Shown here in pieces: positions 1,171-23,333 of a DNA stretch of 30,145 nt. Positions within the stretch are counted from its first letter, which is position 1; each line of letters starts with the position of its first letter. Below the pieces are notes generated by a model, which was given only the letters and a program-made list of their open reading frames with translations, made no database searches and was not told the origin of the DNA. Both the position numbers and the translations under genes were made by a program. The DNA comes from a virus, in the IMG/VR virus record IMGVR_UViG_3300025030_002108, positions 1 through 30,145 of that record. One strand, written 5' to 3'.

Positions 1171-1178
1171 AAGAAAGC

Positions 1179-2875: not shown

Positions 2876-2877
2876 AA

Positions 2878-3327: not shown

Positions 3328-3329
3328 TA

Positions 3330-3758: not shown

Positions 3759-3820
3759 AAGTTTTTATTTAGCTTATATTTTATATTAAAATTATATAGA
3801 ATTAGTGCAGAGGAGGAAGA

Positions 3821-4126: not shown

Positions 4127-4165
4127 TAAAAAATAAAGTAAACTTTATAAGAGAGATTCAAGAAG

Positions 4166-4544: not shown

Positions 4545-4551
4545 AAACTTT

Positions 4552-4558
4552 GGAGGTG
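4552..4558 (+). promoter_or_regulatory. Ribosome-binding site choosing ATG 4562
   Basis: GGAGGTG ends three bases before ATG 4562. The longer reading from TTG 4550 would lie upstream of this site and is therefore not the start. Confidence 0.7.
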
Positions 4559-4561
4559 AAG

Positions 4562-6661: not shown

Positions 6662-6676
6662 GAGGATTAAAATAAT

Positions 6677-7924
6677 ATGACAGAAAACATAGAATATATT
6701 AATGAGGATGGAAGTATCTTAGAGATTGATGTTAGTAAAGGAAGTAAAGTTCCTGGAGTAAAACACACTATTCCAAAGGCAAAAGAAACTAAGGTTCCAG
6801 GAGTAAATTCTTCTAGAAGTAACCCTCCTGTAAAGAATATAAATAGTACAATAAAGAAAGCCTTAGAAATGATGATTCCGGCTATAGAAGAAGAAATTAG
6901 GAAAGGGAGAAGCCGAAGATTATTGCCGGCTGAAATGAGAAGTAATGAGGAATATCGGCAATTATTAGCTTCAAAAAAATATATTCCACCAAAGGAAAGA
7001 ATTAAAAAACCTAGAATTAAGAAAGAACAAGTAATTGGTGATAAAGGACCTAGAGAAGTCCCTAAGAATTTAAAAGATAGTTTAGAAAAAGGTATTGGTA
7101 GAACTATTGCTGGAGGGGCTTTAGGAGCGGGCGTTGGCACCTTGACGGGTCTTAACCCATTAGCTACAGGAGCTGCTGGAGCTGGGGCAGGTTATTTGAC
7201 TGGTGGAGATAAAGAAGAGAAAGCCTTACCAAGTAAGAAAGTTAAAAAAGGTGTTGGTGGAATGGCCTTAGCCTCTCAAGCATTAAGAGATCCTAAAGCT
7301 ACTGGTGAAGGAATTAGAGAAGCTGGAAAAGGTATAAAATCTGCGGCTGAAGGTATTTCTTCTTTAAAGTCATCTGTATTAAAGAAAACAGATCCTATAT
7401 TATCTACTGCTAAACCAAAAGTAGACAAAGAACTTCTAAAAGCAAAAAGTCAAGCTTCATTAAGAATAAAGAAAGCTATTTCTGTTCTTGAAGGCTATGA
7501 ACCTATGAATGATACTATTGTAATGAAATCATTTGGGGGAGAAATACCTAATATAATGAAAGAAGTAGAATTAAGACCACCTGAGACTTGGTGGAATGAT
7601 GCTGTTCAGAAAGCTTCTCAATTTGAAGATTATCCCGCTAAATATTCAATGGAGCTATGGTATAATATTCAAAAGGCAAATCTTGAGGAATCAGATGAAG
7701 AAGATAAAATAATAAATGATTCAGCAAATAGAGATGTGGATGAAATAATTAATCAAGAAGTTAAGAAAAAAGAAAATATTAATAAAGCTGTTGCAGCTTC
7801 TTCATCTGATGAAGTTTTACAACCAAAAAAGAGAGGGGAAAATAAAGCTTTAAGTGATGGTTCTAAAGTAGATGTTTCTGATATTTCTGGGCCTGGCAAG
7901 TCTGAGCAAGAAAGTTCATATTAG
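6677..7924 (+). CDS. Glycine-zipper phage protein (415 aa), function unknown
   Basis: Residues 139-177 form an Ala/Gly-rich glycine-zipper hairpin (GALGAGVGTLTG, then ATGAAGAGAGYLTGG), the type that packs into membranes or pores. The N-terminal third is basic and contains two copies of KVPGV (24-28 and 39-43). A conserved-looking patch PPETWWNDAVQKA followed by a Tyr/Trp-rich helix lies around 300-335, and the tail is acidic then Ser/Lys-rich. AGGAGG at 6660-6666 overlaps the upstream stop codon (TAGGAGG). It sits between two large unknown proteins and ahead of the polyvalent helicase protein. A membrane-active or internal virion role is possible, but no family was recognised. Confidence 0.65.
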   Translation: MTENIEYINEDGSILEIDVSKGSKVPGVKHTIPKAKETKVPGVNSSRSNPPVKNINSTIKKALEMMIPAIEEEIRKGRSRRLLPAEMRSNEEYRQLLASKKYIPPKERIKKPRIKKEQVIGDKGPREVPKNLKDSLEKGIGRTIAGGALGAGVGTLTGLNPLATGAAGAGAGYLTGGDKEEKALPSKKVKKGVGGMALASQALRDPKATGEGIREAGKGIKSAAEGISSLKSSVLKKTDPILSTAKPKVDKELLKAKSQASLRIKKAISVLEGYEPMNDTIVMKSFGGEIPNIMKEVELRPPETWWNDAVQKASQFEDYPAKYSMELWYNIQKANLEESDEEDKIINDSANRDVDEIINQEVKKKENINKAVAASSSDEVLQPKKRGENKALSDGSKVDVSDISGPGKSEQESSY

Positions 7925-7945
7925 AAAGAAAGGAGAAGACTTAAA

Positions 7946-9154
7946 ATGACAATGACTTCTCTACAACCAAACCTCAAAAAAGGCCAATGGCAAGATATTA
8001 CTCCTAACAAAATCCCTATAAAGGTTAGTTACTCTGTTGATGAGAAGAAAAGACGTAGTCGTGCTTTAAGAATTGGTGATAAAAAAACAACTAAACTTCA
8101 GAGTGAAAGAAGTTATAATGTAACTAGAGTTGCATGGGTTCTTCCTCAAAATGCACTTTCTGGTGATTATGAAATTGATTTTGCTCGTATAGACGAAAAT
8201 AAAATCAAATTTCCAACTCCTGATGATACTTCTCGTATGCATCTTCATGAAGGTATAAACAATAAAAGAGAATCTCTTGAAGAGCATCTTGTTTCTGAAC
8301 TTCATTCTGATTTTAATACTAGAGAAGATCATAAAGATGAACGTATTTTGTATGAAAGAAATTATTATAAATTACAGCAAAAACAAGATGAAGCCGAAGT
8401 AAAAACTGAGAGAGAAAGCAGAAAGTTAGAACGAGAACGTAACCAATTACTGAAGAAAAAGAATGTCATTAGTAGAACACAAAATAAATTAGAAAAAATA
8501 GAAGAACAATTAAAAAAATTAGAAAAGAAGAAGACACCAAAAAATAAGATAAAAAGAAAAGAATTAAAAGAAGAATCTTCTCAATTACAGAAAAAAGTTA
8601 AGAAAGTTCCGGTTGTTGTTCAAGCAAGACTTGATGAATTAGAAGAAGAACTATCTGGTATTAAACAGGAAAAAACTCAAAAGAAAGAAACTGAGTCAAG
8701 ACATTGGCTTGATAAATATAGAGTTAAGAGAGGATCTAATGAAAATATTACTGTTAATGGAAAACCAAATAAAGCAGAAACCTATTCTCTTGGAAATGCT
8801 GATTTTAAGATTTTCTTATTTCAGCTAAGAGACTCATTTTATATCTCTTCAAAAAAGCTAAAATCTGAGAAATTTGCTTCTGAGCAGTTAGCTTTAAAAA
8901 GAATTGAAGAGATATTTGAGACAAAAAGACTCAGAGAAAATATTTTATTTAAATCTTTAGAATTGCAGAAAAGTGATATATTCAATCAAATAAATGAAAT
9001 ATTAACTAAGAAACTATCACCTACTGATATTGAAGATAGCCCTGATTCATTCAGAGTGTTCTCAGAATATCAAGCAGGTGACAATAAGGTTGTCTTAGAG
9101 GGCAATGAGAATGGAAAATATTTAGTAAAATGGGAAATCAATGAAAAAATATAA
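7946..9154 (+). CDS. Coiled-coil hypothetical protein (402 aa)
   Basis: Residues ~1-95 look like a small beta-rich domain. Residues ~130-245 are almost entirely charged heptads (Lys/Glu/Leu/Gln), a long coiled coil. The C-terminal part (~255-402) contains a segment DFKIFLFQLRDSFYISSKK and ends with a beta-like GNENGKYLVKWEI. No family was recognised. A GGAG-type site lies about a dozen bases before the ATG. Its last 14 bases overlap the start of the free-standing endonuclease gene at 9141. The coiled coil suggests oligomerisation or a scaffold-like job in the virion (inference). It is too short for a tape measure of a long tail. Confidence 0.62.
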   Translation: MTMTSLQPNLKKGQWQDITPNKIPIKVSYSVDEKKRRSRALRIGDKKTTKLQSERSYNVTRVAWVLPQNALSGDYEIDFARIDENKIKFPTPDDTSRMHLHEGINNKRESLEEHLVSELHSDFNTREDHKDERILYERNYYKLQQKQDEAEVKTERESRKLERERNQLLKKKNVISRTQNKLEKIEEQLKKLEKKKTPKNKIKRKELKEESSQLQKKVKKVPVVVQARLDELEEELSGIKQEKTQKKETESRHWLDKYRVKRGSNENITVNGKPNKAETYSLGNADFKIFLFQLRDSFYISSKKLKSEKFASEQLALKRIEEIFETKRLRENILFKSLELQKSDIFNQINEILTKKLSPTDIEDSPDSFRVFSEYQAGDNKVVLEGNENGKYLVKWEINEKI

Positions 9155-9959
9155 TTGTAGTTATTGTAAAAAAGATTTTACAAGTAAAAGATATAAAAAA
9201 TATTGTTCTAAAGAATGTTATAAATTAGGAATTCGGACAGAAAATTCTTGTATTAATACTTGTATAGTTTGTAAAAAATCTTTTTCTGTTTTAAAATGTT
9301 ATTCATATAGAAAATATTGTTCAAAGTCTTGTTCTACCAAAAATAGATGGAATAATGAATTATTGAAAAATGATAAAGTTCAAACTAAAGAATCAAATAT
9401 AAAAAGAAGTGAGACTTTAAAGGGAAGAAAACCTTGGAATAAAGGATTAACAAAAGAAATAGATTCCCGAATAAATTCTAAACCAAAAACAGATGAAAAA
9501 AGATTAAATATCTCCAAAGGTATGATTAAAAAATGGAAAGACCCAGTATATGCCGAGTCACAATTAACTTTAATTAGAAACAACCATAATTTTGGAAATA
9601 AAAATAGAGGAAAGTTTGGTTTTAGAGAAGATATTAGAATTTTTGTTCGTTCAAGATGGGAAGCAAACTATATTCGATACTTAAATTATGTTGGAATAAC
9701 TTGGGAATACGAGCCAAAAAGATTCCGATTATCAAATGGAAAAATATATATACCAGATTTTCATTTACTTAAAAATAGGAATGGTCGTGTGTTAGATGTT
9801 TGGATAGAAGTTTTTGGATATGATAATAAAGAAAAAAGAAAGAAAATTGCCATGTGTATTTTAGAATATAATTTTCTTCCTTTAATGATTGTAGAAGAAA
9901 AAACTTATAAAGAAATAGAAAAAGAGTATTCTTCAAAAATTATTGGTTGGGAAAAATGA
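9141..9959 (+). CDS. Free-standing homing endonuclease: two zinc fingers, NUMOD3, PD-(D/E)XK-like nuclease
   Basis: The 272-aa protein is a mobile DNA endonuclease of modular type. Two zinc fingers open it: C6/C9/C22/C26 and C41/C44/C60/C64, both of the form CxxC...KYCSxxC. A NUMOD3-like DNA-binding motif (KGRKPWNKG, 94-102) follows. The C-terminal domain resembles PD-(D/E)XK restriction-fold nucleases: RSRWE (E174), YIPDF (D206), and WIEVFGY, where E223-V-F225-G takes the place of the usual E-x-K. The missing Lys may be supplied by a neighbouring residue or may weaken activity. The ATG lies inside the end of the previous gene, and its TGA overlaps the next ATG (ATGA), so it is inserted without breaking translation of either neighbour. 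Its A/T-rich codon use is more extreme than theirs. Confidence 0.8.
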   Translation: MKKYNCSYCKKDFTSKRYKKYCSKECYKLGIRTENSCINTCIVCKKSFSVLKCYSYRKYCSKSCSTKNRWNNELLKNDKVQTKESNIKRSETLKGRKPWNKGLTKEIDSRINSKPKTDEKRLNISKGMIKKWKDPVYAESQLTLIRNNHNFGNKNRGKFGFREDIRIFVRSRWEANYIRYLNYVGITWEYEPKRFRLSNGKIYIPDFHLLKNRNGRVLDVWIEVFGYDNKEKRKKIAMCILEYNFLPLMIVEEKTYKEIEKEYSSKIIGWEK

Positions 9960-10564
9960 ATACTTATGAATATTCAAACATAAGAGAAGCCTTAGCTAAA
10001 TATTATTCTATTATTGGAAAAATTATTACTTCACAAAGCGAGGATAAAGATTCTAGTTTAGAAGCTTTTGGTGAAGAAATTATACTTAGAAATAGAAATG
10101 TTAGAAGACAAATGGATGAATTAAATAAATCTGAAGAAGTAGAATTTTTGAAAGATCTTGATTTTTCTACTCTAACTTTGCCATTTTTAGAAGATTTTAT
10201 ATTAAAATATCAGCCTTCTAGTGTTCTAGGAACTTTGCCTATATATACTGAATCAAATGCTGGGACAAATGAAAGAGGAGAGTCACCTAGTCGTAAAGAT
10301 TTAACTACAGAAGATTATCATAAAAAAGAAAAATCTAAGTTAATGCAGATGCCTATAAAAGGAGAACCTTCAAAAGCCATCACTCCAGCTTTAATTACTA
10401 ACAGTATTTCAAAAGATGGAATAGAAGTAAGGCAAGAAGAGAATAAATCCCCGAAAGACAAGTATCAAATTCCAATTAAAGTAACTGGGTTATATCAAGT
10501 AAAAAATCCTGAACAAAAAGAAATCGAGATGGGAAATAATGTTATTGAGAAACTATGGAATTAA
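9956..10564 (+). CDS. Hypothetical protein (202 aa) preceding the polyvalent protein
   Basis: The start is ATG 9956 (overlapping the endonuclease stop as ATGA) rather than TTG 9947, which lacks support. The N-terminal half is helical and charged. The second half is Pro/Ser/Lys-rich and probably flexible. No family was recognised. The end overlaps the ATG of the 1664-aa gene by 10 bases, so the two are likely co-translated and may act together. Before the endonuclease gene arrived, this gene would have followed directly after the coiled-coil protein gene. Confidence 0.6.
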   Translation: MNTYEYSNIREALAKYYSIIGKIITSQSEDKDSSLEAFGEEIILRNRNVRRQMDELNKSEEVEFLKDLDFSTLTLPFLEDFILKYQPSSVLGTLPIYTESNAGTNERGESPSRKDLTTEDYHKKEKSKLMQMPIKGEPSKAITPALITNSISKDGIEVRQEENKSPKDKYQIPIKVTGLYQVKNPEQKEIEMGNNVIEKLWN

Positions 10565-13500
10565 AAGAATTATTATTTAATATAAATAATATAGTTAAAC
10601 AAGAAAGAACTTATGTTAGTTCAGTTGACGAAGCCCCAGAAGGTGTAAATGTTCAGCGTGGTAGAAGAGGTGGACTATTTTTTACTGGTGCTGGAGAGAA
10701 AAATCAACAAGAACAACCTACTTCTAAAGGGCCTTACTTTAATGTAACTTCAGTAAAAGATCTTGAAAAGTCTATTCCAAAGTTTAAAACAAATATATCA
10801 GAAATTTTCAATCAACTACCAAATTGGCATGTTCAAGGGACTGAATTTTATTTAGTAAAAAAAGAAGATTTAACTGATCCTAATGATAATGAAAAAGGAT
10901 TTGTTGTTGGCCAATATGATTGGACATCTAGAACTATAAGTATTTCTTCTATAGCTAATAATATTGATTTAAGCCAAGATGAATATGGAGAAACTATTAA
11001 TGTCGAGAAAAAATCAGTATGGAAATTAGTAGTTATTCATGAGCTTGGTCATAGGGTTATGGATGACCCGGGAGTTAAAAAGAAATATAAGAAAATGATT
11101 CAAAATGAAGATGATAGTACACTAGGAAGTCCAAGTAAATTTGGTTGTACAAAATATGCTAAATCAAATCAAGTAGAACGATTTGCGGAAGCTTATTTAT
11201 ATTATCTACAAAATCCTAGATTTCTAGAGTCTACTGATAAAAGTATGTTTGATTTCTTAAAGAGTGATGTTTTTGATGAGCAAGAGTATTCTGAAGCATT
11301 AATTAAACAACAAGAAGATTCTAATATTCCGGAAGGTAGTTATTGGATGGAAGATTATGAATATCTTAAAAAGTTAATTAGTGATTCTGATAATCAAAAA
11401 AATCCTGATAGTATCTCTAAAGCACAGGTTCATCCAAGTATAAAATATTCTGGACACTATATTCCCATTAGAACTATTATTAGGTCAAAGAACGGATTAA
11501 TTAGGTCTGCTATTAGGTGGAAGAAATTTGCTTCTGCCGGTTTAGAAAAAATTAAATCTAATAAAAATTTAAAGGGTGTAGTTCATGTTTCACAAACTCC
11601 AACATATACTCAACAAAGTTTAGTCAAACAGACTCTATTCTTTGTGTCTGATGAAGCTAGTGTTGCTGAGATAAAGAATGATAACTATATTCCTTTAGCG
11701 GAATATAAAACATTGGGTTTAGGAATTTATCTTCATGGTGATATTGATGAAGCTACAAAGAAATCTGAAGAAGAAGAAAAAGAAGTTCTTCCAGTGAAAG
11801 TTAATCTTCAAAAATTATTCCAGTCAACAATGAAAGACGTTGAATCACAAAATATAGAAGGATTAAAAGAACAAGGATATGATGCTATTGTCTTGATGAA
11901 AGAGGGGCCATATCAATTTGACTTATTTGTATTTGATAATTCTAAAATTGTTGTTATTGGTGATGATGAATTAAGTGATAAAATTGCAAAAGATATTTCT
12001 GAAACAGAATGTGAAGATTGCTTAGATGCAAAAGATTTTTCATTTAACTCTTTTATGCCTGGAATAATAGATAAAATAGAAAAAGCCGTTATAGCTACTC
12101 CAAGTAATCCAGATGGGTCTGTTGCGTATGATAAGGTTCCAATTGGGTCTGCTATTTGGGTAACTGTTACAAAAGAAGGGCCTCTTCATGGAAGACATGT
12201 ACTTATCACGAAGAGGCCAGATGGGCTTTTCGCTATAACTGGTGGTGCGGGGCACAGACAAATGAAAGATAAATATGGGCTTGAAACTAGAACTGATGCT
12301 TTAAGACATTTAGTTATGGCAGGTAAACCTGAAAAAACTAAAGCGGATGTGGAACTAGATAAAATAAATGAAGAGAGACAAAAGGAAAATGAGCCTTTAA
12401 TTGAAAGACGAAGAGAATTAGCTAAATATGGTAAAGAAGAAATAGAACAAGCTTTCAATAAATTTAATGATGCGGTTCAAATAAAATCAATGGATGCCAC
12501 CCAGGTTAGAAAACATAGGGAAGAAATTTCAAAATATGCTCAAGACAATGGTTTAGATGAAGAAAAAGCAGATGATTATGCCTCAGCTATAGTTAGGCAT
12601 TATTCAATGGCGGAAAAACAGATTGCTGAAAAACGACGTAGAGATGTTGGATTAAACTTATATAATAAACTTCGTAAAATGAAAGAAGGATCCAATATTG
12701 AAGAAGTAACAAGAGAATTAAATGAAGAATTAGACTTTAGACCAATATCAGTAGATTTACCTAATCCAGAGTCTTATAAAGATTTAACTAAAGAAGATAT
12801 TGATGGAAAAATTGGTGATATAATTAATGAAAAAGTGGCTGAGATATTTAATCCCAATCCTTTAGATAAAAGAATAGATTCTGAATTAAAAACTGAAGGA
12901 ATAGAATTATCAGACACTGAAAAATCTAAAGATATTATGTCTATTAATTTAGGCGAAACTATTAAACCATTAGAAATTAAAGATGAGGAATCTTTAAAAA
13001 GTTCTTTTGAAAAATTTAAATCTTATTATGCTTTAAAGAAAGAAATTAATGAAGTTAAAAAACTTATAAAACCAGCAGATTTAAAGAAAGTAACTCCAGC
13101 TTTATTAGAAAAGATGAGGATGGATATTAAAGGAATATTTAGGGAAGGAATCTCTGATGAAGAATTAATGGAAATTCAAACAAGTTATGATGAACAGTGG
13201 CAGAATAATAATTCAGCTTTATCTTTTTATAAAGCTATATCTGATATTTGGAACGATAAAAAATCAATAAAAGAAAAGTTATCTAGAATAGATAATGGAT
13301 TTGGTGGATATGTAAATTCTGGAGCCAATAGTGCACTATCTGCTTTAACTGGAAAATATGTTGGTGAAAGAACTGATGCCGCTCAATTAATTGATAAAAC
13401 TAATGTTGAAACAGCTAGTATGATTACAGCATTTCAACTTAGAGATAAGTTTAAAGGAAATGTAGAACAATTTAATTCAATTATACAAAAAGTTGAAGAG

Positions 13501-15549
13501 TTTAATAATACAAATCAGATAAAGACGGAACAAGAAGCTTTATCTAGACACAAGGATTTACAATCTAAGTATCAAACGATACAAAGTGCAAAACAAACTG
13601 GAACATTATCTTCAAAATTATTTTCTACTGAATCTGAAATAAATAATTTAATTGAACAGAAAAAGAATCTTGGTACAGCATTAGGGTCAATGCAGGCTTC
13701 AGCAGCATTTTTGAATGCTTTACAAATAGCTAGAGACGCTAAAGACAATATGATTTCAGTTGATTTTGGAAATGATTCTAACGGGGCTGAATCAAGATTA
13801 TTAGAATTAAACCTTGGGAATAAGGGGTTTATTGATGCAAGTGATCCTAATCATGTTAAATTACTTACTAGTGCTAAAGCATTAAATAAATATGTTAAAA
13901 GTCTTGATGTGATAAAAGAAAATCATGATGAAAATGAAAGAATTAAAACCAATATGAACGGAGCCTTTGAAGATGAAGAAGGAAAAGTTTATGTAAAAGA
14001 TTATAAAGTCCCCATGTGGAAAGATACATATAAAGATGAAGAAGGAAAAGAACAAAAATATCAACATAGAATAGAACAAAGAAATGATATTGAATTTTTA
14101 AAGAAAACTGGAAATGGAGTAATTACAAGGGTTACAGGAGCAGGCAAAACTAACGTGGCTTTAGGTTTTTTTGCCAATAAAATAGATGAAACAAAAAATT
14201 ATTCCGGGCTTACAATTGTTCCTAAAGGAAGAGTAAAGCAATGGGTTGAAGAAGCTAAAAAATTCTCAAATCTTGATGTAGTTGAAATTCCTGAAGGAAT
14301 AAATAAAGATGAAAGGGCAAAGATGATTGCAGGATTAAAAAAGAACCAGATTGCAGTAATGTCTCAAAAAGATGCTATTGTTTCTTACTATCCTCTTGAA
14401 GGAGCTTTTATGAGTGGACAAATTAAAGGAATGGTATTAGATGAACCACAAGAAATAGCTTCTAGAAGTATTAGTGGTAATATGTCTGCTTCTATTAGAA
14501 AATTAACTAAACTACCTTCAGAAAATAGAATTGTATTGACTGCTACACCAGCTAGAGATAATTTAATAGAAGCATATGATTTAGTAAATTGGGTATCTCA
14601 TCATGATAAAAGTTTAGGACCTAGAACTAGATTCCAAAGAATTTATGGTGGATATGGAAGTGGAACAAATGCTCAAGATACGACTTTACAACAAATGATA
14701 TTTAAAGAAATATCTCCATATATTAGTGGTGATAGATTAACTAATCCTAATTTTAAGATTAAAAGAAATAATATTTCAGTTAAAAAGACAGATATTCAGA
14801 ATACTAATATGAAAAAACTTGAGGCTAATGCAGATAAATATATTGAAGATGAAAAGATTACCTTTTTAAATAATATTTCAAATAATCCTGAAGAACTAAA
14901 AAAATGGGAAAATAAATATGGAAGAGCGTGGAAGACTCAAGCATCATTACAATCAAATAAAGTAGCCAGACAAAAATTACTAGAGGACCATGGTGATAAT
15001 TTGGATGGTATTTCTGGTCAAATGACTTGGAAAGATAATCCTAAAATTAGTGGTTTTATTAATAATTTTACTGCAGAAAAGAATAAAAAACATGTAGTAT
15101 TTTTAGATAATGATAAACAAAGAAGGGCAATAGTTGAAGGACTTTCTTCAACTGGGTTAAAACAGAACCAAATAAAAAATATTGCTTCTTCCACAATTTC
15201 TGGTGGAATTAAAGGTTCTGAAATGTCAAACAGAGTAAAAGAATTTAAAACTGATAAAAATGTAAAAGTAATTTTTATTGATAAAAACTCAAGTTCTGGA
15301 TATAATTTACAAGAAGGTGATGTTTTACAAGTTTTAGGAACACCCTCTGATGCAGCTTCATACTTGCAAGCACAGGGGCGGGTGGCAAGAATGCCGAGAA
15401 AAGGAGATGTTGAAATAAATACTTATAAATATTCAGATAATCCTTTTGATGATGAGAAATGGACAAAGTTAGATCATCAAACTAAAATCCTTCAAGCCAC
15501 TAGTCCTGGACTTTTTGTAGAGGGAAAAGGAGTAAAGAGAAATGAATGA
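10555..15549 (+). CDS. Giant polyvalent protein: zincin metalloprotease, ART-like domain and SF2 helicase
   Basis: This 1664-aa multi-domain protein fits the 'polyvalent protein' theme of phages and conjugative elements. Domains in order: an EAPEGVNVQRGRRGG segment at 26-40, typical of phage head-associated proteins; a zincin metallopeptidase with HELGH at 162-166 and a likely third ligand E212 in RFAEAY; a GHYIP element at 300-304; and an ADP-ribosyltransferase-like domain (~343-475) with GYDAIV at 441-446 and a closing FVFDNSKI strand. A conserved-looking HGRHVLI/GLFAITGGAG unit at ~545-575 and long helical regions (~600-1150) follow. The C-terminus is an SF2 helicase: TGAGKT 1194-1199, DEPQ 1296-1299, TATP 1329-1332 and QAQGRVAR 1605-1612. 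Such proteins are thought to be delivered with the DNA and act on host targets; that role is inferred. Confidence 0.82.
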   Translation: MELKELLFNINNIVKQERTYVSSVDEAPEGVNVQRGRRGGLFFTGAGEKNQQEQPTSKGPYFNVTSVKDLEKSIPKFKTNISEIFNQLPNWHVQGTEFYLVKKEDLTDPNDNEKGFVVGQYDWTSRTISISSIANNIDLSQDEYGETINVEKKSVWKLVVIHELGHRVMDDPGVKKKYKKMIQNEDDSTLGSPSKFGCTKYAKSNQVERFAEAYLYYLQNPRFLESTDKSMFDFLKSDVFDEQEYSEALIKQQEDSNIPEGSYWMEDYEYLKKLISDSDNQKNPDSISKAQVHPSIKYSGHYIPIRTIIRSKNGLIRSAIRWKKFASAGLEKIKSNKNLKGVVHVSQTPTYTQQSLVKQTLFFVSDEASVAEIKNDNYIPLAEYKTLGLGIYLHGDIDEATKKSEEEEKEVLPVKVNLQKLFQSTMKDVESQNIEGLKEQGYDAIVLMKEGPYQFDLFVFDNSKIVVIGDDELSDKIAKDISETECEDCLDAKDFSFNSFMPGIIDKIEKAVIATPSNPDGSVAYDKVPIGSAIWVTVTKEGPLHGRHVLITKRPDGLFAITGGAGHRQMKDKYGLETRTDALRHLVMAGKPEKTKADVELDKINEERQKENEPLIERRRELAKYGKEEIEQAFNKFNDAVQIKSMDATQVRKHREEISKYAQDNGLDEEKADDYASAIVRHYSMAEKQIAEKRRRDVGLNLYNKLRKMKEGSNIEEVTRELNEELDFRPISVDLPNPESYKDLTKEDIDGKIGDIINEKVAEIFNPNPLDKRIDSELKTEGIELSDTEKSKDIMSINLGETIKPLEIKDEESLKSSFEKFKSYYALKKEINEVKKLIKPADLKKVTPALLEKMRMDIKGIFREGISDEELMEIQTSYDEQWQNNNSALSFYKAISDIWNDKKSIKEKLSRIDNGFGGYVNSGANSALSALTGKYVGERTDAAQLIDKTNVETASMITAFQLRDKFKGNVEQFNSIIQKVEEFNNTNQIKTEQEALSRHKDLQSKYQTIQSAKQTGTLSSKLFSTESEINNLIEQKKNLGTALGSMQASAAFLNALQIARDAKDNMISVDFGNDSNGAESRLLELNLGNKGFIDASDPNHVKLLTSAKALNKYVKSLDVIKENHDENERIKTNMNGAFEDEEGKVYVKDYKVPMWKDTYKDEEGKEQKYQHRIEQRNDIEFLKKTGNGVITRVTGAGKTNVALGFFANKIDETKNYSGLTIVPKGRVKQWVEEAKKFSNLDVVEIPEGINKDERAKMIAGLKKNQIAVMSQKDAIVSYYPLEGAFMSGQIKGMVLDEPQEIASRSISGNMSASIRKLTKLPSENRIVLTATPARDNLIEAYDLVNWVSHHDKSLGPRTRFQRIYGGYGSGTNAQDTTLQQMIFKEISPYISGDRLTNPNFKIKRNNISVKKTDIQNTNMKKLEANADKYIEDEKITFLNNISNNPEELKKWENKYGRAWKTQASLQSNKVARQKLLEDHGDNLDGISGQMTWKDNPKISGFINNFTAEKNKKHVVFLDNDKQRRAIVEGLSSTGLKQNQIKNIASSTISGGIKGSEMSNRVKEFKTDKNVKVIFIDKNSSSGYNLQEGDVLQVLGTPSDAASYLQAQGRVARMPRKGDVEINTYKYSDNPFDDEKWTKLDHQTKILQATSPGLFVEGKGVKRNE

Positions 15550-15787
15550 GCTTTCAGCTCAAGGAATGATGGTAGATGTTGAAGTTAGAAAGAAATTAAA
15601 TGAACTAATTGACCTAAAAGACGAACTAGAAAAAGAAATTAAAAATTCTAATCCAATTAAAGCCCAAGAATTAAAAGATGGTTTAAATAAAGTCAATGAT
15701 TTAATTGGTAAAATTAGGTATCATTCTTTAGACGAAATGAATGTTTTAAGTGAGGAAAAGACAGATGAGAATAATGCTGAAAAGTAA
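15542..15787 (+). CDS. Small helical protein (81 aa)
   Basis: The ATG overlaps the stop of the polyvalent gene by 8 bases (ATGAATGA), so translation is probably coupled. The product is predicted to be a helical hairpin: heptad-like stretches ~12-35 and 40-60, rich in Lys/Glu/Leu, with a charged tail. No domain was recognised. Its last codons contain the ribosome-binding site and start of the panD gene. It could be a partner or chaperone of the polyvalent protein (inference from coupling only). Confidence 0.6.
   Translation: MNELSAQGMMVDVEVRKKLNELIDLKDELEKEIKNSNPIKAQELKDGLNKVNDLIGKIRYHSLDEMNVLSEEKTDENNAEK
15752..15756 (+). promoter_or_regulatory. Ribosome-binding site choosing ATG 15765 of panD
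   Basis: GAGGA lies 8 bases before ATG 15765. The earlier in-frame GTG at 15750 overlaps this site and cannot use it. The resulting N-terminus MRIMLKSKIH aligns well with that of cellular PanD. Confidence 0.7.
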
Positions 15788-16103
15788 AATACATGGTATT
15801 AAAGTAACAGATGTAAATCCTAATTATTGCGGAAGTATTACAATAGATTCTAATCTAATGAAAAAAGTAAATATTTTAGAATATGAGCAAGTTCATGTAT
15901 TAGATGTCACTAATGGAGCAAGATTTATAACATATGCAATGGAAGGAAACAAAGATGAAATTTGTGTTAATGGGGCTGCAGCTAAATTAGTAGAATTTGG
16001 AGATATAATAATTATTTTGGTTTATGGTATTTATAATGATCTTTGGCCTGTGTATAGAAAACCTAAAATAATATATTGTAACAAAGAGAATGAGCAGTAT
16101 TAA
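15765..16103 (+). CDS. panD: Aspartate 1-decarboxylase (pyruvoyl-dependent), phage-borne
   Basis: The 112-aa product aligns end to end with bacterial PanD, which decarboxylates L-aspartate to beta-alanine for pantothenate and CoA synthesis. The self-cleavage site is intact: Gly23-Ser24 in NYCGSITID (Gly24-Ser25 in E. coli); cleavage would leave the pyruvoyl group on the new N-terminus. Other active-site positions are kept one to three residues out of register: K8, H10, Y21, R53, T56 and Y57 in NGARFITYA, and N69 in VNGAAA. The protein is slightly shorter than the usual ~115-130 aa. The start overlaps the upstream gene and its end overlaps the next gene, so it is built into the phage operon and is not a stray host fragment. 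No other pantothenate gene is visible. Catalysis is inferred from the complete site. Confidence 0.9.
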   Translation: MRIMLKSKIHGIKVTDVNPNYCGSITIDSNLMKKVNILEYEQVHVLDVTNGARFITYAMEGNKDEICVNGAAAKLVEFGDIIIILVYGIYNDLWPVYRKPKIIYCNKENEQY

Positions 16104-16431
16104 AGTATTTGAATTAATTAAAGATGGTACTTGGAAAGAAGGCATAAATTTTGATTTTGTTCCGGTGGGGAAATCATTTACTACTAAAACAGTGTGTTTC
16201 TCTCCTGAGGGAGTTAATATTGCTGATTTAAAGGTAATGATAGAAAACAAAGATGATTTTATTTTTACAAAATCCAATGATCATTTAATGACTGAGTGGA
16301 AAAGTCTTACACCATTTAAGATACTAGATGGAGAGATGAGCAATCCAATTAAAATAGAGTTTTTAGTTAAGTCTGGTCCAGTAAGAATGGATAACCTTCA
16401 TTTAGTATTTGAATATTTAGAAATTCCTTAA
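16090..16431 (+). CDS. Hypothetical protein (113 aa), beta-rich
   Basis: The ATG overlaps the end of panD by 14 bases. The sequence alternates hydrophobic and polar residues with few helical runs, consistent with a small beta-sandwich. A segment FVPVGKSFTTKTVCFSPEG and a terminal MDNLHLVFEYLEI strand stand out. No family was recognised. Its look (small, beta, no catalytic residues) would suit a virion decoration or adaptor protein, but that is a guess. The 38-bp gap that follows contains a strong ribosome-binding site for the next gene. Confidence 0.6.
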   Translation: MSSIKVFELIKDGTWKEGINFDFVPVGKSFTTKTVCFSPEGVNIADLKVMIENKDDFIFTKSNDHLMTEWKSLTPFKILDGEMSNPIKIEFLVKSGPVRMDNLHLVFEYLEIP

Positions 16432-16469
16432 GATACTAAGATATAAAATAATAAAGAAAGGTAGAAAGT

Positions 16470-18257
16470 ATGGTTTGGAATAAAACAGCTTCAATAGTAC
16501 AAAATTCCTCATTACAAAGAATAGTAATTGGTGTTCCTTATGAAGTTAAAGTAACTATGATGTGGGCTATGAAAACAATGGCTCCATTACTATTTACTTC
16601 TACAAATTGGTGTGAAAAAATTCCTCAAATGGCCAGGGGAGTTCCACAAAGTGTAGCCAGAGATCAAATTGTTGACCAAGCTTTATTAGACCCTTTAGTG
16701 ACACATATTCTTTGGGTTGATTCTGATTCTATTTGTGAATCTCCTGAAGATCCAAATGTAGCTTTAAATATGTTATACCAATGTAATGTTCCTATAGTTT
16801 CAGGATTATATCGTGCTAAACAAAAACAAGGATTTAATTATGCTGCTTGGATGGATGCTAAACTTCCAGATAATAAACCTGGATTTGTTCCAATAGAATC
16901 TTATACTGGCAATTTCTTTCAAGTTGATACTGTTGGAATGGGGTTTTGCTTAGTTAAAAGAGAAGTTTATGAGAGATTATCAAAGCCTTGGTATCCTTGG
17001 CCGACACATTCTCCAAGTGAAGATTTTAATTTTTGTGTTTTAAAAGATACTTTGGTGTATGGAAATAATATTGTTCCAATAGAGACTTTAAATATTGGTG
17101 ATACTGTTTTAACTTGTGAAGGTTTAATTAAAACTGTTACTAACATAATGCATCATGAATATCAGGGAATTCTTAAACGATTAAAAACTTTTGGAAGTGA
17201 TGCTACATTTACTCCAAATCATCCAATATTAATTAGAAGGGATAAAAATATTTCTTGGGTTAAGTCTGAAAATGTATGTAGAGGAGATTACATTTTTATT
17301 CCTAAGATTCAACGTGACGTGGTGCCATTTTATTCCTTAAGTTTACCTGATTATGTAGATATTTCCAAATGTTCAATAACTAATGATGGGAAAGTTTATT
17401 ACAAGAAAACACATACTAAGGCTCCAAGAATATTGCCTGATATTAAAATAACTAAAGATTTAATGCGATTATTTGGTTATTATATTGCTGAAGGATGTAC
17501 TGGTTCTAAAAATAATTGTATTATTTTTGTATTTAATAAGTCTGAAACGGAATATTGTAATGATGTTATTAATTTATTAACAAATTTATTTGGGGCCACC
17601 TCCACCATATCCTATAATGGCAATGTTATTAGAATTACTTGTAGTTCAAAAATTATTGCAGAATTATTTACTTATTTATTTGGTCATTTAGCAAGAAATA
17701 AGCATTTACCTTGGTTTTTTAATAGACTCGATAATGAATGTTTATCAGAACTCATAAAAGGGTGCTGGAGAGGGGATGGAAATAAAAATGGTTTTGGATA
17801 TCATACTGTTTCAAAAATATTGGCTCATCAAATAAGAATGTCATTATTAAGATTAGGGATTCTTGCCTCTGTTAAAGGTAATTCTAATAGAGGCCGTGGA
17901 TATAGCATTAATGTTAGTACTAAATATCATGGAGATTTTTCAAGAATAATAGGAATTGGTAAAGGGGTTAATAGCTCCTATCATAGTTATCCTTGGAGAA
18001 ATTATATTGTTTCAGATTCTCCTCAAGGTTTTTGGTTGAAAGTTAAAAATATAGAAGACGTTCAATATGAGGGTTTGGTTTATAATATTTCAGTAAATAA
18101 TAGTGAGTCCTATATCGCCGATGGAATAGGTGTTCATAATTGTATTCAAGCAAAAAAATATGGCTATGATATAAATGTTTTTACAGATGTAAAAATCTCA
18201 CATATTGGAGATCTTATCGTAAAAACAGATGGCTCTGTTTCTGTATTGGAGATTTAA
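16470..18257 (+). CDS. GT-A glycosyltransferase precursor interrupted by an intein
   Basis: The 595-aa precursor consists of a 226-aa glycosyltransferase split by a 369-aa intein. The host enzyme shows a GT-A fold: ARDQIVDQAL then WVDSDS, whose D84-x-D86 would bind the metal and nucleotide-sugar, then SGLYRA, and the acceptor-side SEDFNF (residues 183-188). That last motif is where the intein sits; it resumes as CIQAKKYGYDINVFTDVKISHIG, the expected continuation with a conserved His. The activated sugar and acceptor are unknown. AAAGG lies 8 bases before the ATG. It opens the sugar-gene cluster. Without splicing the catalytic ED motif is separated from the rest of the fold, so activity should depend on splicing (inference). 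Confidence 0.85.
   Translation: MVWNKTASIVQNSSLQRIVIGVPYEVKVTMMWAMKTMAPLLFTSTNWCEKIPQMARGVPQSVARDQIVDQALLDPLVTHILWVDSDSICESPEDPNVALNMLYQCNVPIVSGLYRAKQKQGFNYAAWMDAKLPDNKPGFVPIESYTGNFFQVDTVGMGFCLVKREVYERLSKPWYPWPTHSPSEDFNFCVLKDTLVYGNNIVPIETLNIGDTVLTCEGLIKTVTNIMHHEYQGILKRLKTFGSDATFTPNHPILIRRDKNISWVKSENVCRGDYIFIPKIQRDVVPFYSLSLPDYVDISKCSITNDGKVYYKKTHTKAPRILPDIKITKDLMRLFGYYIAEGCTGSKNNCIIFVFNKSETEYCNDVINLLTNLFGATSTISYNGNVIRITCSSKIIAELFTYLFGHLARNKHLPWFFNRLDNECLSELIKGCWRGDGNKNGFGYHTVSKILAHQIRMSLLRLGILASVKGNSNRGRGYSINVSTKYHGDFSRIIGIGKGVNSSYHSYPWRNYIVSDSPQGFWLKVKNIEDVQYEGLVYNISVNNSESYIADGIGVHNCIQAKKYGYDINVFTDVKISHIGDLIVKTDGSVSVLEI
17034..18140 (+). mobile_element. Intein with LAGLIDADG homing endonuclease
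   Basis: This in-frame element of 369 codons runs from Cys189 to Asn557 of the precursor, with Cys558 as the +1 extein residue. Block A begins CVLKDTLVYG. Block B contains TFTPNHPILI with T248-x-x-H251. Two LAGLIDADG-type motifs follow (LFGYYIAEGC at 334-343 and LIKGCWRGDG at 428-437). Block F reads VYNISVNNSESYIADG, and block G ends GVHN before C. All residues required for class 1 splicing (N-terminal Cys, block-B His, penultimate His, terminal Asn, +1 Cys) are present. The LAGLIDADG acidic residues (E341 and D436) are retained, so homing activity is plausible. Confidence 0.92.
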
Positions 18258-18274
18258 AAGTTAAGGAGAGAAAG

Positions 18275-19330
18275 ATGCTTTATTCAGTATATTGTACTTT
18301 TGATGATATTAAGAAAACTTCTGGGGCTGGATTAGTTTGTTATCATGAAACTCAGGCTTTATCAAAAGTTACTGACTTAAAAAAAGTTATACAGAGAAAA
18401 GATTTTCCTCAAAACTATGAATTTAATCCCTTTCTTTATGATTATTTTGCTGCTAGAATGTCATTTCCTGAACATGTAAATCTTCTCCATCTTAGTTGTT
18501 CACCAGGATTAGCAATTTTAGAAACAGTTAAACCAAAACATTATGTAGTAAATATAGTTGCCCATGATTTAAATATAAGTATTGAAGAGCATGAAAGATA
18601 TTATGGTATAAGAACTTATCCATTTAAACATAATACAGATTTATATCTTCATGAATTATTGTTAAAGCACTCTGAAAATGCTGATTGTGTAATATGTCCT
18701 TCAACTTCAGCTGAAAAATGGATTAAAAATAATCTTAAGATAAAAAGAGTAAAAGTAATTTCACATGGTTGTGATATACCTGAAACAATTTCTTCAATAC
18801 CGAATGAATTTAAAGTAGGGTATTTGGGAGCATTTGGTCCAGATAAAGGCCTGATTTATTTATTGATGGCTTGGGATCATTTTAATAAAGACTCTGAACT
18901 TATATTTGCTGGAAATTGCAGTAAACCAATTGAACAATTAGCTAAAGACATTATTAAACATAATCAAACTTATAAAACTTTAGGTTGGGTTAAAGATATT
19001 GCTGATTTTTATAACCAAATTAGTGTTTATGTTCAGCCATCAGTAACGGAAGGATTTGGAATAGAAATACTTGAAGCAATGTCATACGGAAGACCTGTCA
19101 TTTCTTCTTCAGGGGCAGGTGGGGTTGATGTTATTAGAGATGGAATTGATGGATTTATTGTTCCACCTAGAAATCCACAAGCTATTTTAGATAAATTGTT
19201 TTATTTTAAAAATAATCCACAAGAAATAATTAAAATGGGTTTAGCGGCAAGAGAACAATCAAAACTTTTTTCTTGGGATAAGATTGAAGAAAAGTATGTG
19301 AATTTATATAAGGAGATTATTAATGCCTGA
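18275..19330 (+). CDS. GT4-family (GT-B) glycosyltransferase
   Basis: The 351-aa protein has a GT-B fold of family 4 (Glycos_transf_1 type). The C-terminal half has the donor-binding signature E259-x7-E267 (EGFGIEILE) followed by AMSYGRPVISSSGAGGVDVIRDG; the N-terminal half is the acceptor domain. Family 4 enzymes are retaining and use NDP-sugars; the specific sugar is not deducible. AAGGAG lies 7 bases before the ATG. The stop overlaps the next gene's ATG by 8 bases. It belongs to a five-gene run of sugar enzymes following the intein-bearing glycosyltransferase, which points to a shared glycan product attached to virion or host surface (inference). Confidence 0.88.
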   Translation: MLYSVYCTFDDIKKTSGAGLVCYHETQALSKVTDLKKVIQRKDFPQNYEFNPFLYDYFAARMSFPEHVNLLHLSCSPGLAILETVKPKHYVVNIVAHDLNISIEEHERYYGIRTYPFKHNTDLYLHELLLKHSENADCVICPSTSAEKWIKNNLKIKRVKVISHGCDIPETISSIPNEFKVGYLGAFGPDKGLIYLLMAWDHFNKDSELIFAGNCSKPIEQLAKDIIKHNQTYKTLGWVKDIADFYNQISVYVQPSVTEGFGIEILEAMSYGRPVISSSGAGGVDVIRDGIDGFIVPPRNPQAILDKLFYFKNNPQEIIKMGLAAREQSKLFSWDKIEEKYVNLYKEIINA

Positions 19331-20579
19331 AGCTCAAGTAGTTCTCCCATTCAAACAGGGTCAAAAAATTCTTGAAGTTGGCGGTGGTGATATTCCAGTA
19401 TTTCGCCCAAATTTAGATTTTAGAAAACTTCCAACTGTTGATTACGTTGGAGATCTTGAAGAGGTGTGGCCTATTGAAGATACCTCTTTTGATGGGATAT
19501 TTGGTAAATTTTGTATAGAACATGTTTCATGGCGAAAAACACAACATTTTGCTAATGAATGTTTTAGAATACTATCTCCTGGTGGTATTGCTATAATGAT
19601 TAGCCCCAATACTTTAGAACAATGTAAAGAAGTAGCAAGGACTGGTAGAATAGATATTGAAGAAAGTGCAATGTTATTTGGGGGACAAGAAGAACATGGT
19701 TGGAATGAGCATAAAGCGGCATTTAGTCCTGAATACGCCACTAAACTATTTAAAAATGCAGGATTTGAAAATGTTGAAATAGAAACTTGGCCCGGTCAGA
19801 TATGGACTGGTGCTAGAACAGATATGATTATAAAAGCTTTTAAAAGAGAAAATAAAACAGAATCTGGCTTTACAAATCAAAAATGGTATCAAGATCTAAA
19901 TAATAATTTAAATAGTCAAGTTGAAAAAGTCAAGCTTAATATCGGGTCCTTTACAGTTATGTCAAAAGATAATTGGGTTAATGCAGATATTTTAGATTTA
20001 AGTTCTTATGCTGGTCAAAATGGATATAAATTTAAACAATTTGATGCTACTAAAGGAATCCCATATAAAAATAATGAAGTAGATTTAATAATTACAAGCC
20101 ATTTTATGGAGCATATCACTCGTCAAGAAGGAACACAATTTCTTAAAGAATGCTTTAGGGTAATGAAACCCAATGGAATTATAAGAATTGCTGTTCCTAA
20201 TATGAAGTTAATTACTCAATATTATTTAGAAGATGCTTCATTCAAAAATACTTTCAAAGAAAATGAAGGAGTTAAAAATTCTGAAGATATTACAGAAGCT
20301 TATTGGAATTTTATTACTGCAGGGCATAAGACAGCTTATGATGAAGACTCTTTAGGAAAGAAAATGAAAGAAGTTGGATTCATTGAAGTAAATAAATCTT
20401 TATTTGGTCAATCAAGGAGTCCTGAAATTAAATCTGAAACTAAGGATATGTTTGAAGACCATAGTCTATATATGGAAGCTGTTAAACCTAACATAGAAAT
20501 TCATTCTAGTGCGTCTGATAATCGTGTAGAACTATATCAGCAATATCTATTGGGACTTATAAATGAAGGAAAACAATAA
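19323..20579 (+). CDS. Tandem SAM-dependent methyltransferase protein
   Basis: The 418 residues hold two class I methyltransferase-like domains in series. Domain 1 (~1-170) has the SAM loop LEVGGGDIP at 17-25 and the motif GKFCIEHV at 61-68, then a post-II RILSPGG turn at 82-88. Domain 2 (~200-395) has LNIGSF at 205-210 in place of the usual GxGxG, SHFMEHI at 259-265, and a similar RVMKPNG turn. The second G-loop is reduced, so it may bind SAM weakly or serve a structural role. Paired domains suggest methylation or related modification of a sugar or lipid-linked glycan, given the flanking glycosyltransferases. The start overlaps the preceding stop by 8 bases. Confidence 0.82.
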   Translation: MPEAQVVLPFKQGQKILEVGGGDIPVFRPNLDFRKLPTVDYVGDLEEVWPIEDTSFDGIFGKFCIEHVSWRKTQHFANECFRILSPGGIAIMISPNTLEQCKEVARTGRIDIEESAMLFGGQEEHGWNEHKAAFSPEYATKLFKNAGFENVEIETWPGQIWTGARTDMIIKAFKRENKTESGFTNQKWYQDLNNNLNSQVEKVKLNIGSFTVMSKDNWVNADILDLSSYAGQNGYKFKQFDATKGIPYKNNEVDLIITSHFMEHITRQEGTQFLKECFRVMKPNGIIRIAVPNMKLITQYYLEDASFKNTFKENEGVKNSEDITEAYWNFITAGHKTAYDEDSLGKKMKEVGFIEVNKSLFGQSRSPEIKSETKDMFEDHSLYMEAVKPNIEIHSSASDNRVELYQQYLLGLINEGKQ

Positions 20580-21614
20580 ATGAATATAGCTTTAATATCT
20601 TCACCTTTTTTTACAGTGCCGCCTTCTAAATATGGTGGGTTAGAAATGATAGTTTGGGATTTAGCCCATGGATTAATTAAATTAGGGCATAAAGTAGTAA
20701 TATTTGCTCCTAAAGGAAGTCAAGTTCCTTCAAATGGTTTTGTTTATGAAACAGGCGAACCTATAGACACAGTTAATGTTGATTGGTTAAAAGCAGAAGA
20801 AGATATGTGGAAAGTTTACAAAGATAAACTAAAAGATTTTGATATTGTTCATGGTCATAACTGGTTTGGTTTCGAATATGCTTTCAAACTTGAAAATATT
20901 AAATATAAAGTATTACATACTCATCATGGGCATATTAATCAAGATTGGTGGTGTAAAACTAAGCCTCCCTATAAATTAAATTTTATAACTCTTTCTAAGT
21001 TTATGCAGGCAGAAGCTAAAACACAAGGAATTGAAAGTCAATATGTCTATAATGGAATTGATTTAAATAAATATCCTTATCAAGAAAATAAAGGAGATAG
21101 ATTATTATTTGTTGGTAGATTAGACTCTCTAAAAAGACCTCATATTGCTATTGAAATAGCTAAGAAAATGAACTTAGGTTTAGATATTGTTGGTGGAAGT
21201 TTTGTTAATGATCTAAATTATTTAAATCAAATAAAACAACAATGTGATGGAAATCAAATTAAATTATATTTAAATGCTACTCAAGAAGAAAAAGTTAAAT
21301 TGTATCAGAATGCTAAATGTGTAATATTTCCAAGCAAGATGGATGAACCATTTGGTTTAATTGTTCCTGAGGGAAGTGCCTGTGGAACAGCTATTATTGG
21401 TTCAAGAGATGGGGCAATTCCAGAAACAATAGAAAATGGAATCAATGGTTTTGTGTGTGATACAGTTGATGAAATGTGTTTTGCAGTTGAAAGAATAAAT
21501 GAAATCAAACCTGAAAATTGTAGAAAAAGAGTTGAACAAAATTTTACTTTAGAAATCATGACTAAAAATTATGAAAGATTTTACAGAGAAGCTTTAGAAG
21601 GAAAGGAGTGGTAA
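20580..21614 (+). CDS. GT4-family glycosyltransferase (second copy of the type)
   Basis: The 344-aa GT-B enzyme opens with a Rossmann-like MNIALISSPFF and a glycine-rich YGGLEMI loop. It carries LLFVGRLDSLKRPHIAI in the middle and the E256-x7-E264 signature (EPFGLIVPE) with GSACGTAIIGSRDGAIPE in the donor domain. It shares the fold but is not a close duplicate of the 18275 enzyme: loops and the N-terminal half differ. The ATG immediately follows the previous stop codon, with GAAGGA nine bases upstream. It is likely a second transferase for successive sugars in the same glycan (inference). Confidence 0.88.
   Translation: MNIALISSPFFTVPPSKYGGLEMIVWDLAHGLIKLGHKVVIFAPKGSQVPSNGFVYETGEPIDTVNVDWLKAEEDMWKVYKDKLKDFDIVHGHNWFGFEYAFKLENIKYKVLHTHHGHINQDWWCKTKPPYKLNFITLSKFMQAEAKTQGIESQYVYNGIDLNKYPYQENKGDRLLFVGRLDSLKRPHIAIEIAKKMNLGLDIVGGSFVNDLNYLNQIKQQCDGNQIKLYLNATQEEKVKLYQNAKCVIFPSKMDEPFGLIVPEGSACGTAIIGSRDGAIPETIENGINGFVCDTVDEMCFAVERINEIKPENCRKRVEQNFTLEIMTKNYERFYREALEGKEW
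21602..21608 (+). promoter_or_regulatory. Ribosome-binding site choosing ATG 21617
   Basis: AAAGGAG lies 8 bases before ATG 21617 at the end of the preceding gene. It overlaps the alternative GTG 21608, which is therefore not the start. Confidence 0.7.
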
Positions 21615-21616
21615 TA

Positions 21617-22522
21617 ATGAGTTTTTATTTAGTTACTGGAGGGGCTGGATTTATTGGGTCTAATTTAGCTAGAAAATTACTCTGTGATGGGCATGAGGTT
21701 TTGCTTCTTGATAATTTATCAACAGGTAGTTTAAAAAATATTCCTAAAGAGTCTATTTGTATTCAAGGATCTTTAGTTGGAGAAATTAATAGTATTAAAA
21801 TAAAAGCCCCTGATGGAATATTTCATTTAGGAATTCCTTCAAGTACTCCATTATATAGATCAAATAGATATTTAGTTGGAAAAGCTATATCTGAATTTAT
21901 CTCTCTTTTTGAATATGCTAAACAGAATAATGTAAAAGTTGTCTATGCTTCATCTTCTTCAGTTTATAATGGTTGTTCTGTTCCTTGGAAAGAAGGTATT
22001 GAACTTTTACCAACAGATTTTTATAGTGAAGTTAGAATTTCTTTTGAAAGATTGACTAAAGTATATTATGACTTATATAATGTTAAATCTATAGGATTAA
22101 GAATGTTTTCTGTTTATGGCCCGCATGAAGAATATAAAAAACAATATGCTAATTTAATTACTCAACTTCTTTGGGCAAAGTTAAAAGATGAAACTTTTGA
22201 AATTTATGGCAATGGTGAACAGAGAAGAGATGTGGTTTATGTAGATGATATTATAAAGGCTTTTATTATGTCTATGAATTCAAATATTGAATATGGTATT
22301 TTTAATATAGGAACGGGAATTAATTATAATATAAATGCAATAGCTAAAAAAATTGGAACAAAAATAAAATATATTCCAGTTCCATTTAAGAATTATGTTG
22401 ATGTAACACTCGCAGACACCTCTAAAACAAAAAAAGAGTTAGGATTTAGTACTCCAATTTCTTTAGATGAAGGTTTAGAAAAACTTAAAAAATATTATGA
22501 AGAAGAGATATCATGGAAATAA
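21617..22522 (+). CDS. NAD-dependent epimerase/dehydratase (extended SDR)
   Basis: Counting from ATG 21617, the 301-aa product shows the NAD-binding TGGAGFIG (G8-x-x-G11-x-x-G14), a following acidic DN at 32-33 that favours NAD over NADP, the VVYASSSSVY segment carrying the catalytic Ser/Thr region, LRMFSVYGPHE, and RRDVVYVDD. It is related to UDP-glucose 4-epimerase/4,6-dehydratase-type sugar enzymes. A deviation is visible: in the YxxxK catalytic motif, Tyr136 is kept but the Lys position is Arg140 (YSEVR). Activity may be altered. It ends ten bases past the next ATG. It likely supplies or modifies an NDP-sugar for the neighbouring transferases. Confidence 0.88.
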   Translation: MSFYLVTGGAGFIGSNLARKLLCDGHEVLLLDNLSTGSLKNIPKESICIQGSLVGEINSIKIKAPDGIFHLGIPSSTPLYRSNRYLVGKAISEFISLFEYAKQNNVKVVYASSSSVYNGCSVPWKEGIELLPTDFYSEVRISFERLTKVYYDLYNVKSIGLRMFSVYGPHEEYKKQYANLITQLLWAKLKDETFEIYGNGEQRRDVVYVDDIIKAFIMSMNSNIEYGIFNIGTGINYNINAIAKKIGTKIKYIPVPFKNYVDVTLADTSKTKKELGFSTPISLDEGLEKLKKYYEEEISWK

Positions 22523-22965
22523 TTCAAGGGCAAGCTATTACCAGATATGATAATAATATTTCTAGTGATGGAAGTTCTTTTCCTCAATCTTATAAAACAT
22601 TGGTAAAAATTTTAGACGGTAAATTTGCTATATTAGAACAATTTGAAGAAGAAATTGATGGAAAGATGTGTGAGGGTTGCGAAGCTCCTTGCGAGAAAGG
22701 GGAATTCATGGTTTTATTAACCGAAGCTGAATTTCGATCTGGAAAATACCCATTTAGAATTGTACAAATGCCAGATTTAGAAAAGAATTTTTCTACACAA
22801 AAAGCTATTGGGATGGCTCTAGGTGAATGTGGTTGTTTTTTCTTAAAAGATAATAAATGCACAATTTATAAAGATAGGCCAAAAGCTTGTCGAATGTACA
22901 ATTGCAAAACAGATCCAAGAGCAAAAATTATAGAATTTGTAAAGAAAAGATTTGGTACTAAATGA
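22513..22965 (+). CDS. YkgJ-type CxxCxxxC metal-binding protein (copy 1)
   Basis: The 150-aa protein matches the YkgJ/UPF0153 zinc- or iron-chelating cysteine-cluster family. It has C53-x2-C56-x3-C60 in MCEGCEAPC, then C106/C108 in ECGCFFL, C116 in KCTIY, RP.AC (C126) and NC at 131. In the usual motif the third Cys is doubled (CC). Here the second of the pair is Glu61, so one ligand is missing. The family's biochemical role is poorly defined, though members occur near sugar and surface-polysaccharide genes. It overlaps the epimerase by 10 bases and the second copy by an ATGA junction. Confidence 0.78.
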   Translation: MEIIQGQAITRYDNNISSDGSSFPQSYKTLVKILDGKFAILEQFEEEIDGKMCEGCEAPCEKGEFMVLLTEAEFRSGKYPFRIVQMPDLEKNFSTQKAIGMALGECGCFFLKDNKCTIYKDRPKACRMYNCKTDPRAKIIEFVKKRFGTK

Positions 22966-23333
22966 AATCACCAAATTACACTATTAAATCACCAATTCAA
23001 TTTTGGGATATAAAAGTAGCTACAATTGAACATTATGGTAATGAATATGGAAATGAATTTTGTAATGGTTGTGAAGCTCCTTGTTGTGGAAAATTAGGTG
23101 TCCCATTATTAACTGAATCAGAATTTCATTCTAATAAGTATCCAATTAAAATTGTAAGTATCAAAGAATTAAATACTGAAAATATGATTGGACTGGCTAT
23201 AGAAAATGAGAACTGTGTTTTCTTAAAAGGTAATTTATGTACAATTTATAATGATAGACCTCAAGCATGTAAAAATTATAATTGTAAAGAAGACCCAAAA
23301 GCTAAAGATTTTGTAAAAAAGAGGTTTGGATAG
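22962..23333 (+). CDS. YkgJ-type metal-binding protein (copy 2)
   Basis: This 123-aa paralogue of the preceding protein shares the order C34-x2-C37-x3-C41-C42 (CNGCEAPCC), C85 in NCVFL, C93 in LCTIY, C103 in RPQACKNY and C108 in NC. It keeps the complete ligand set that copy 1 has lost in part. Both end in KKRFG, so they arose by tandem duplication. The shared ATGA overlap shows they are translated together. It marks the end of the sugar cluster; a large structural gene follows. Confidence 0.8.
   Translation: MKSPNYTIKSPIQFWDIKVATIEHYGNEYGNEFCNGCEAPCCGKLGVPLLTESEFHSNKYPIKIVSIKELNTENMIGLAIENENCVFLKGNLCTIYNDRPQACKNYNCKEDPKAKDFVKKRFG

Follow-up and report, generated by a model that had tools for sequence, protein, structure and literature searches.

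A virus-encoded aspartate decarboxylase gene, panD, belonging to a virus-only lineage nested among Dehalococcoidia PanDs

A complete panD gene lies among virus genes in the window, by which we mean the whole stretch of DNA that was analyzed; it is 30,145 bases long and makes up an entire IMG/VR virus record. Its product groups with three other viral proteins in a virus-only clade nested among the PanDs of Dehalococcoidia. PanD is a self-activating enzyme whose product, beta-alanine, leads to vitamin B5 (pantothenate) and coenzyme A (CoA). Our results make it fairly likely that the virus carries an active PanD, derived from a Dehalococcoidia-type panD, that would feed the pantothenate and CoA supply of its host during infection.

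Virus genes for a pantoate transferase and a pantothenate kinase have been reported from the marine ETNP oxygen minimum zone, and the same benefit through pantothenate and CoA was proposed for them (PMC8940887). These genes share the pathway and the proposed benefit with the panD of the window, but they encode other enzymes, and the main text of that report is without PanD (PMC8940887). As panD is also annotated in two isolated phages, CoA-pathway genes of viruses and phage panD annotations are already on record, and the suggestion from a first, sequence-only reading of this DNA, that the pathway is an unusual target for a phage, was only half true. No description of PanD in phages was found in the literature searched, and within the papers and libraries covered, the recurrence of panD in viruses and its virus-only lineage seem to be undescribed before. 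The formation of beta-alanine by PanD joins the cofactor and vitamin steps already seen in viruses. Its presence is not a one-off: viruses acquired panD more than once, and one lineage persists in viruses that differ widely in gene content. PanD is a short enzyme with an easily measured self-cleavage, so that the activity of a virus metabolic gene can here be tested directly.

RESULTS AND DISCUSSION

A full-length panD gene inside a virus genome

The panD gene (positions 15765 to 16103, plus strand, as are the portal, protease, neck, helicase, and glycan-block genes described below) encodes a pyruvoyl-type aspartate 1-decarboxylase of 112 amino acids, identified by family match and fold model. 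The protein matches Pfam PF02261 (Asp_decarbox) over its whole length (130.6 bits, E 3.3e-38) and the NCBIfam equivalog TIGR00223 (panD) with 116.9 bits, against a cutoff of 106; curated cutoffs are thus exceeded by a full-length match. PHROGs v4 gave no match to this protein, and phage annotation relying on that library would miss the gene. The reading frame is intact and overlaps the frames on both sides, by 23 nt at its start with an open reading frame (ORF) for a small protein of 81 amino acids (15542 to 15787, plus strand) and by 14 nt at its end with an ORF for a protein of 113 amino acids (16090 to 16431, plus strand). Both the full-length PanD and the two overlaps proposed in the sequence-only reading were borne out. 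Family searches with the 81-residue protein gave no convincing match, and no relatives of the 113-residue protein were found in family and homologue searches; a single-sequence model of the latter was unusable (pLDDT 39). A Shine-Dalgarno-like GAGG (15752 to 15755, plus strand) precedes the panD ATG by 9 nt. The codons GGA AGT (15831 to 15836, plus strand) encode Gly23-Ser24, which corresponds to Gly24-Ser25 of Escherichia coli PanD and is the predicted self-cleavage site, where Ser24 would become the pyruvoyl group.

The panD gene is situated inside a genuine tailed-virus contig, among virus genes and away from any host boundary, as expected of a viral auxiliary metabolic gene (AMG). Upstream are the 3' part of a portal protein gene (35 to 1030; family match and overlap with a second record, L135, which holds the full gene at 5307 to 6842), a ClpP-type head maturation protease gene (2270 to 2875; family match), and a tail completion/neck protein gene (3330 to 3758; family match). 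To this extent the description of the locus as a structural operon holds, but the immediate neighbors of panD are a 1,664-residue protein with SNF2/DEAD helicase domains (10555 to 15549; domain match), the two small proteins, and a glycan block (16470 to 22522; Pfam) consisting of an intein-split ORF, two GT4 glycosyltransferases, a double methyltransferase, and an NAD-dependent sugar epimerase; large fiber-like proteins follow this block. A search with the 1,664-residue protein found no relatives of the window virus.

L135 (IMGVR_UViG_3300025012_001073) overlaps the window at 7 to 1267, with 100% identity over 1,261 bases and zero mismatches, and extends the virus upstream through a terminase gene and the start of the portal gene. 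Because L135 ends short of panD, it supports the assembly of the virus and not the panD junctions, which rest on the overlapping frames.

Active site and predicted structure

With E. coli/Salmonella numbering, the window PanD retains each of the 14 active-site positions checked, namely, K9, H11, Y22, G24-S25, R54, T57, Y58, G73, A74, A75, I86, and N112, which are listed as strictly conserved in aspartate decarboxylases (PMC3314653), and also N72. The earlier claim that the Gly-Ser pair and the Lys, His, Tyr, Arg, Thr, Tyr, and Asn positions are conserved is confirmed by this comparison. An AlphaFold model of the protein, made with a 30-row alignment, had a pLDDT of 94.6 and is predicted to adopt the double-psi beta-barrel fold of PanD. 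Its best PDB matches were all PanDs, with E. coli PanD at a TM score of 0.96 and an rmsd of 1.0 Å. The stretch between Tyr58 and Asn72 is short (11 residues) in the window PanD. We rejected this short loop as a virus signature, as the same is found in 24 of the 81 cellular PanDs looked at.

These positions have been kept through heavy divergence. The nearest cellular relative of the window PanD, L152, is separated from it by approximately 1.1 changes per site, and outside the 14 sites the two are 54% identical. At the rate of the remainder of the protein, the odds of keeping 14 of 14 sites would be roughly 2e-4, a rough figure based on a protein-wide rate, while active sites are always more conserved. 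The estimate argues against decay and does not exclude uses other than the canonical one. Small genes can be passively carried, and panD could in principle be a decaying, functionless relic, but the intact frame, the complete active site, and the ribosome-binding-like site make this very unlikely.

Phylogeny and origin

The best 80 cellular relatives of the window PanD, from approximately 85,000 species, are mostly from Chloroflexota, chiefly Dehalococcoidia. Among 393 genomes of the class Dehalococcoidia, to which L049 belongs, the best match is the protein of G347 (L152), with 61% identity by search and 60% when aligned; the L049 protein is 57% identical. The window PanD and those of the IMG/VR records L002, L003, and L008 form a clade made up of viruses only, with support of 99/97 in a tree of 55 rows and 100/95 in one of 66 rows. 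This clade is nested in the Dehalococcoidia PanDs, adjoining L152 and L049, and its join with L152 has support of 97/84; the trees are based on 111 columns, which leaves their deep branching order uncertain, and in the larger one the bootstrap values were not fully settled. The IMG/VR scan found no members of this clade beyond L002, L003, and L008.

The Dehalococcoidia PanDs (L152/G347 and L049) resemble that of the window in sequence, in active site, and in the 11-residue stretch between Tyr58 and Asn72. Their genes, however, have pan genes as neighbors, as is normal for this pathway: panD is flanked by a panE-like gene and panB in both L152 and L049, and L049 also has panC. The viruses carry panD alone, and that of the window is AT-rich, with a GC content of 27% and a GC3 of 15%, compared to a GC3 of 13 to 23% for its virus neighbors and a GC content of 49% for the L152 locus. 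As this composition is that of the virus neighbors, panD has probably long been resident in an AT-rich virus. The origin of panD is thus cellular, with subsequent retention by viruses, as in viral AMGs. For the lineage of the window, a Dehalococcoidia-type (Chloroflexota) panD probably entered viruses once and would then have been inherited or exchanged among unrelated viruses.

The gene might be taken for contaminating host DNA, an assembly chimera, or something recently picked up by chance, as several "phage" PanD database matches are indeed host DNA, with panC-panD or pth-panD neighborhoods. For the window this is extremely improbable. The frames overlap on both sides of panD, its composition is that of the virus, and its clade mates are in clear virus contigs. 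When window positions 1 to 20000 were compared with the 393 Dehalococcoidia-class genomes, meaningful DNA matches were confined to panD, the rest being chance-level short pieces. Phylogeny had been proposed as the means of detecting contamination, and with the virus-only clade recovered, none was seen. The retention of panD looks selected rather than a chance pickup: the clade, the virus-like composition, and an active site kept through heavy divergence favor the phage selection proposed earlier, while the translational overlap cited for it says little by itself.

PanD in other viruses

We scanned IMG/VR for PanD by protein/alignment and DNA-pattern searches. Many virus records have PanD, some of which are host edges or unclear, such as L038, which has a strong PanC match in the same record; the DNA-pattern matches in L031 and L033 were due to chance. 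L003 is a clear virus with a DNA polymerase A gene close to panD; L002 and L008 are clear viruses with approximately 30 tRNAs each, L008 also having a bacterial-type CCA-adding enzyme; and L029 is a clear virus with a RecA-like gene. A second virus with panD at the position found in the window was not seen, and as there is no close panD pair for the window, purifying selection is not measurable in close relatives.

In both L002 and L008, panD is flanked by tRNA-His(gtg) and tRNA-Gly(gcc) within the tRNA array, although the two PanDs are only 50% identical. The shared site despite this divergence indicates that panD has long been inherited along one line of viruses. The two arrays have nearly the same order, with many interleaved small proteins carrying a CxxCxxRFxCxT-type motif. 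In L004, a 324-kb virus contig, ARAGORN identifies a stop-codon tRNA (anticodon tta; 7906 to 7978) directly 5' of panD. The panD of the window is in neither a tRNA array nor the vicinity of DNA polymerase A.

The PanDs of L002, L003, and L008 are 48 to 60% identical to the window copy. They differ from it in having lost His11, which is Tyr in L002, Asn in L003, and Arg in L008 and is His in 80 of 81 cellular PanDs; L002 also lacks Tyr22. The Gly-Ser pair, Lys9, Arg54, Thr57, and Tyr58 are kept in all three. The PDB entry for the H11A variant of E. coli PanD (1pt1) is titled "unprocessed," and the loss of His11 makes decarboxylase activity of these three proteins doubtful. The virus PanD clade may be drifting from standard chemistry. 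We give a small but real chance to the view that this lineage is partly off that chemistry, through another maturation, another substrate, or a pyruvoyl-free function, with the window copy still canonical.

These losses, together with the R54H and N72H replacements in the PanD of Achromobacter phage 2-1 and the setting of the window panD amid overlapping late virus genes, are also what would be seen if the fold were kept for a noncatalytic job, as a virion part or a binding or regulatory protein, the active site being a leftover. We consider this unlikely for the window copy, which holds every catalytic position at its distance from cellular PanDs, and whose sister genes accompany tRNA genes or a DNA polymerase gene rather than virion genes.

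A phage collection gave 15 PanD matches, of which 12 were set aside: two Acinetobacter records (one of the two was looked at and shows a bacterial pth-panD neighborhood), one contig of a Salmonella chromosome carrying panC-panD, and nine unannotated draft fragments, which we did not count as support. Some "phage" records, e.g., CAKLQH020000007.1 and AFYI01000001.1, are bacterial chromosome segments with panD, and PanD counts from phage databases call for curation. The matches kept were Gordonia/Rhodococcus phage Jace (two records) and Achromobacter phage 2-1, in which an annotated panD lies inside phage gene blocks. Like the window, these isolated phages have PanD without PanC, but their PanDs are on a separate, distant branch, and that of Jace (gp87) has Gly at both 74 and 75. 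In the tree, the branch of Jace is clearly distinct from that of the window; panD has, on this topology, entered viruses more than once, other viruses having acquired it separately. The tree requires at least three viral/cellular changes with contigs taken as labeled, but because some "viral" contigs are host edges, this gives only a rough idea of how many acquisitions are real.

Proposed function

By analogy with its family, the window PanD would cleave itself between Gly23 and Ser24, generating the pyruvoyl cofactor, and would form an oligomer, with its active sites at the subunit interfaces, that converts L-aspartate to beta-alanine. PanM occurs only in Gammaproteobacteria, and class II PanDs self-cleave without it (PMC4537548). 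The tree places the window PanD with the class II-type PanDs of Dehalococcoidia, outside the Gammaproteobacteria; it may likewise cleave by itself, and the virus would then need no helper. No PanC was found in the window, L002, L003, L008, Jace, or Achromobacter phage 2-1. Since the virus contig has no PanC, we infer that the extra beta-alanine formed in infection would pass to the PanC of the host, or an equivalent, and from there to pantothenate and CoA.

That a single enzyme of the pathway is found in the window virus counts against this reading. An active decarboxylase could instead serve a use other than CoA, such as glycan decoration, osmolyte formation, or a change in aspartate flow, and both the absence of PanC nearby and the glycosyltransferase/epimerase/methyltransferase block directly downstream would fit. 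On the other hand, no known beta-alanine-using enzyme was recognized in the window, and other viral panDs are, as a rule, away from glycan genes, so that we regard such a use as improbable. The earlier alternative of a virion or sugar-pathway factor found no positive support for the window copy. Supply of host pantothenate and CoA remains our preferred reading.

Host and other features of the virus

The window PanD points to Dehalococcoidia as a candidate host lineage. A search with the portal protein found L135, plus distant haloarchaeal viruses and others at 23 to 27% identity; its only relatives among isolates are haloarchaeal tailed viruses, which at 26% are too distant to decide the host. 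The portal suggests an archaeal host, as does, weakly, a phosphoesterase, although the best match of the latter is from an Actinomycetia phage. In the 393 Dehalococcoidia-class genomes, which the window DNA matched mainly in panD, there was no near portal, the best being 19 to 22% identical. Cys-rich stretches are present in the L135 portal and likewise in haloviral portals. The L135 terminase is perhaps in two adjacent ORFs (281 to 1291 and 1294 to 2079), with a family match in the first only.

Homing-endonuclease-like genes, with zinc-finger or repeated N termini, are present in the window at 9141 to 9959 and 25634 to 26413, and a third such gene is in L135 at 4334 to 5086; none had a firm family match. 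An intein that contains a LAGLIDADG domain interrupts the glycosyltransferase-like ORF at 16470 to 18257 (Pfam Intein_splicing, 4e-13). Beside the sugar epimerase, at 22513 to 23333, are two neighboring CxxCxxCC paralogues that are putatively metal chelating.
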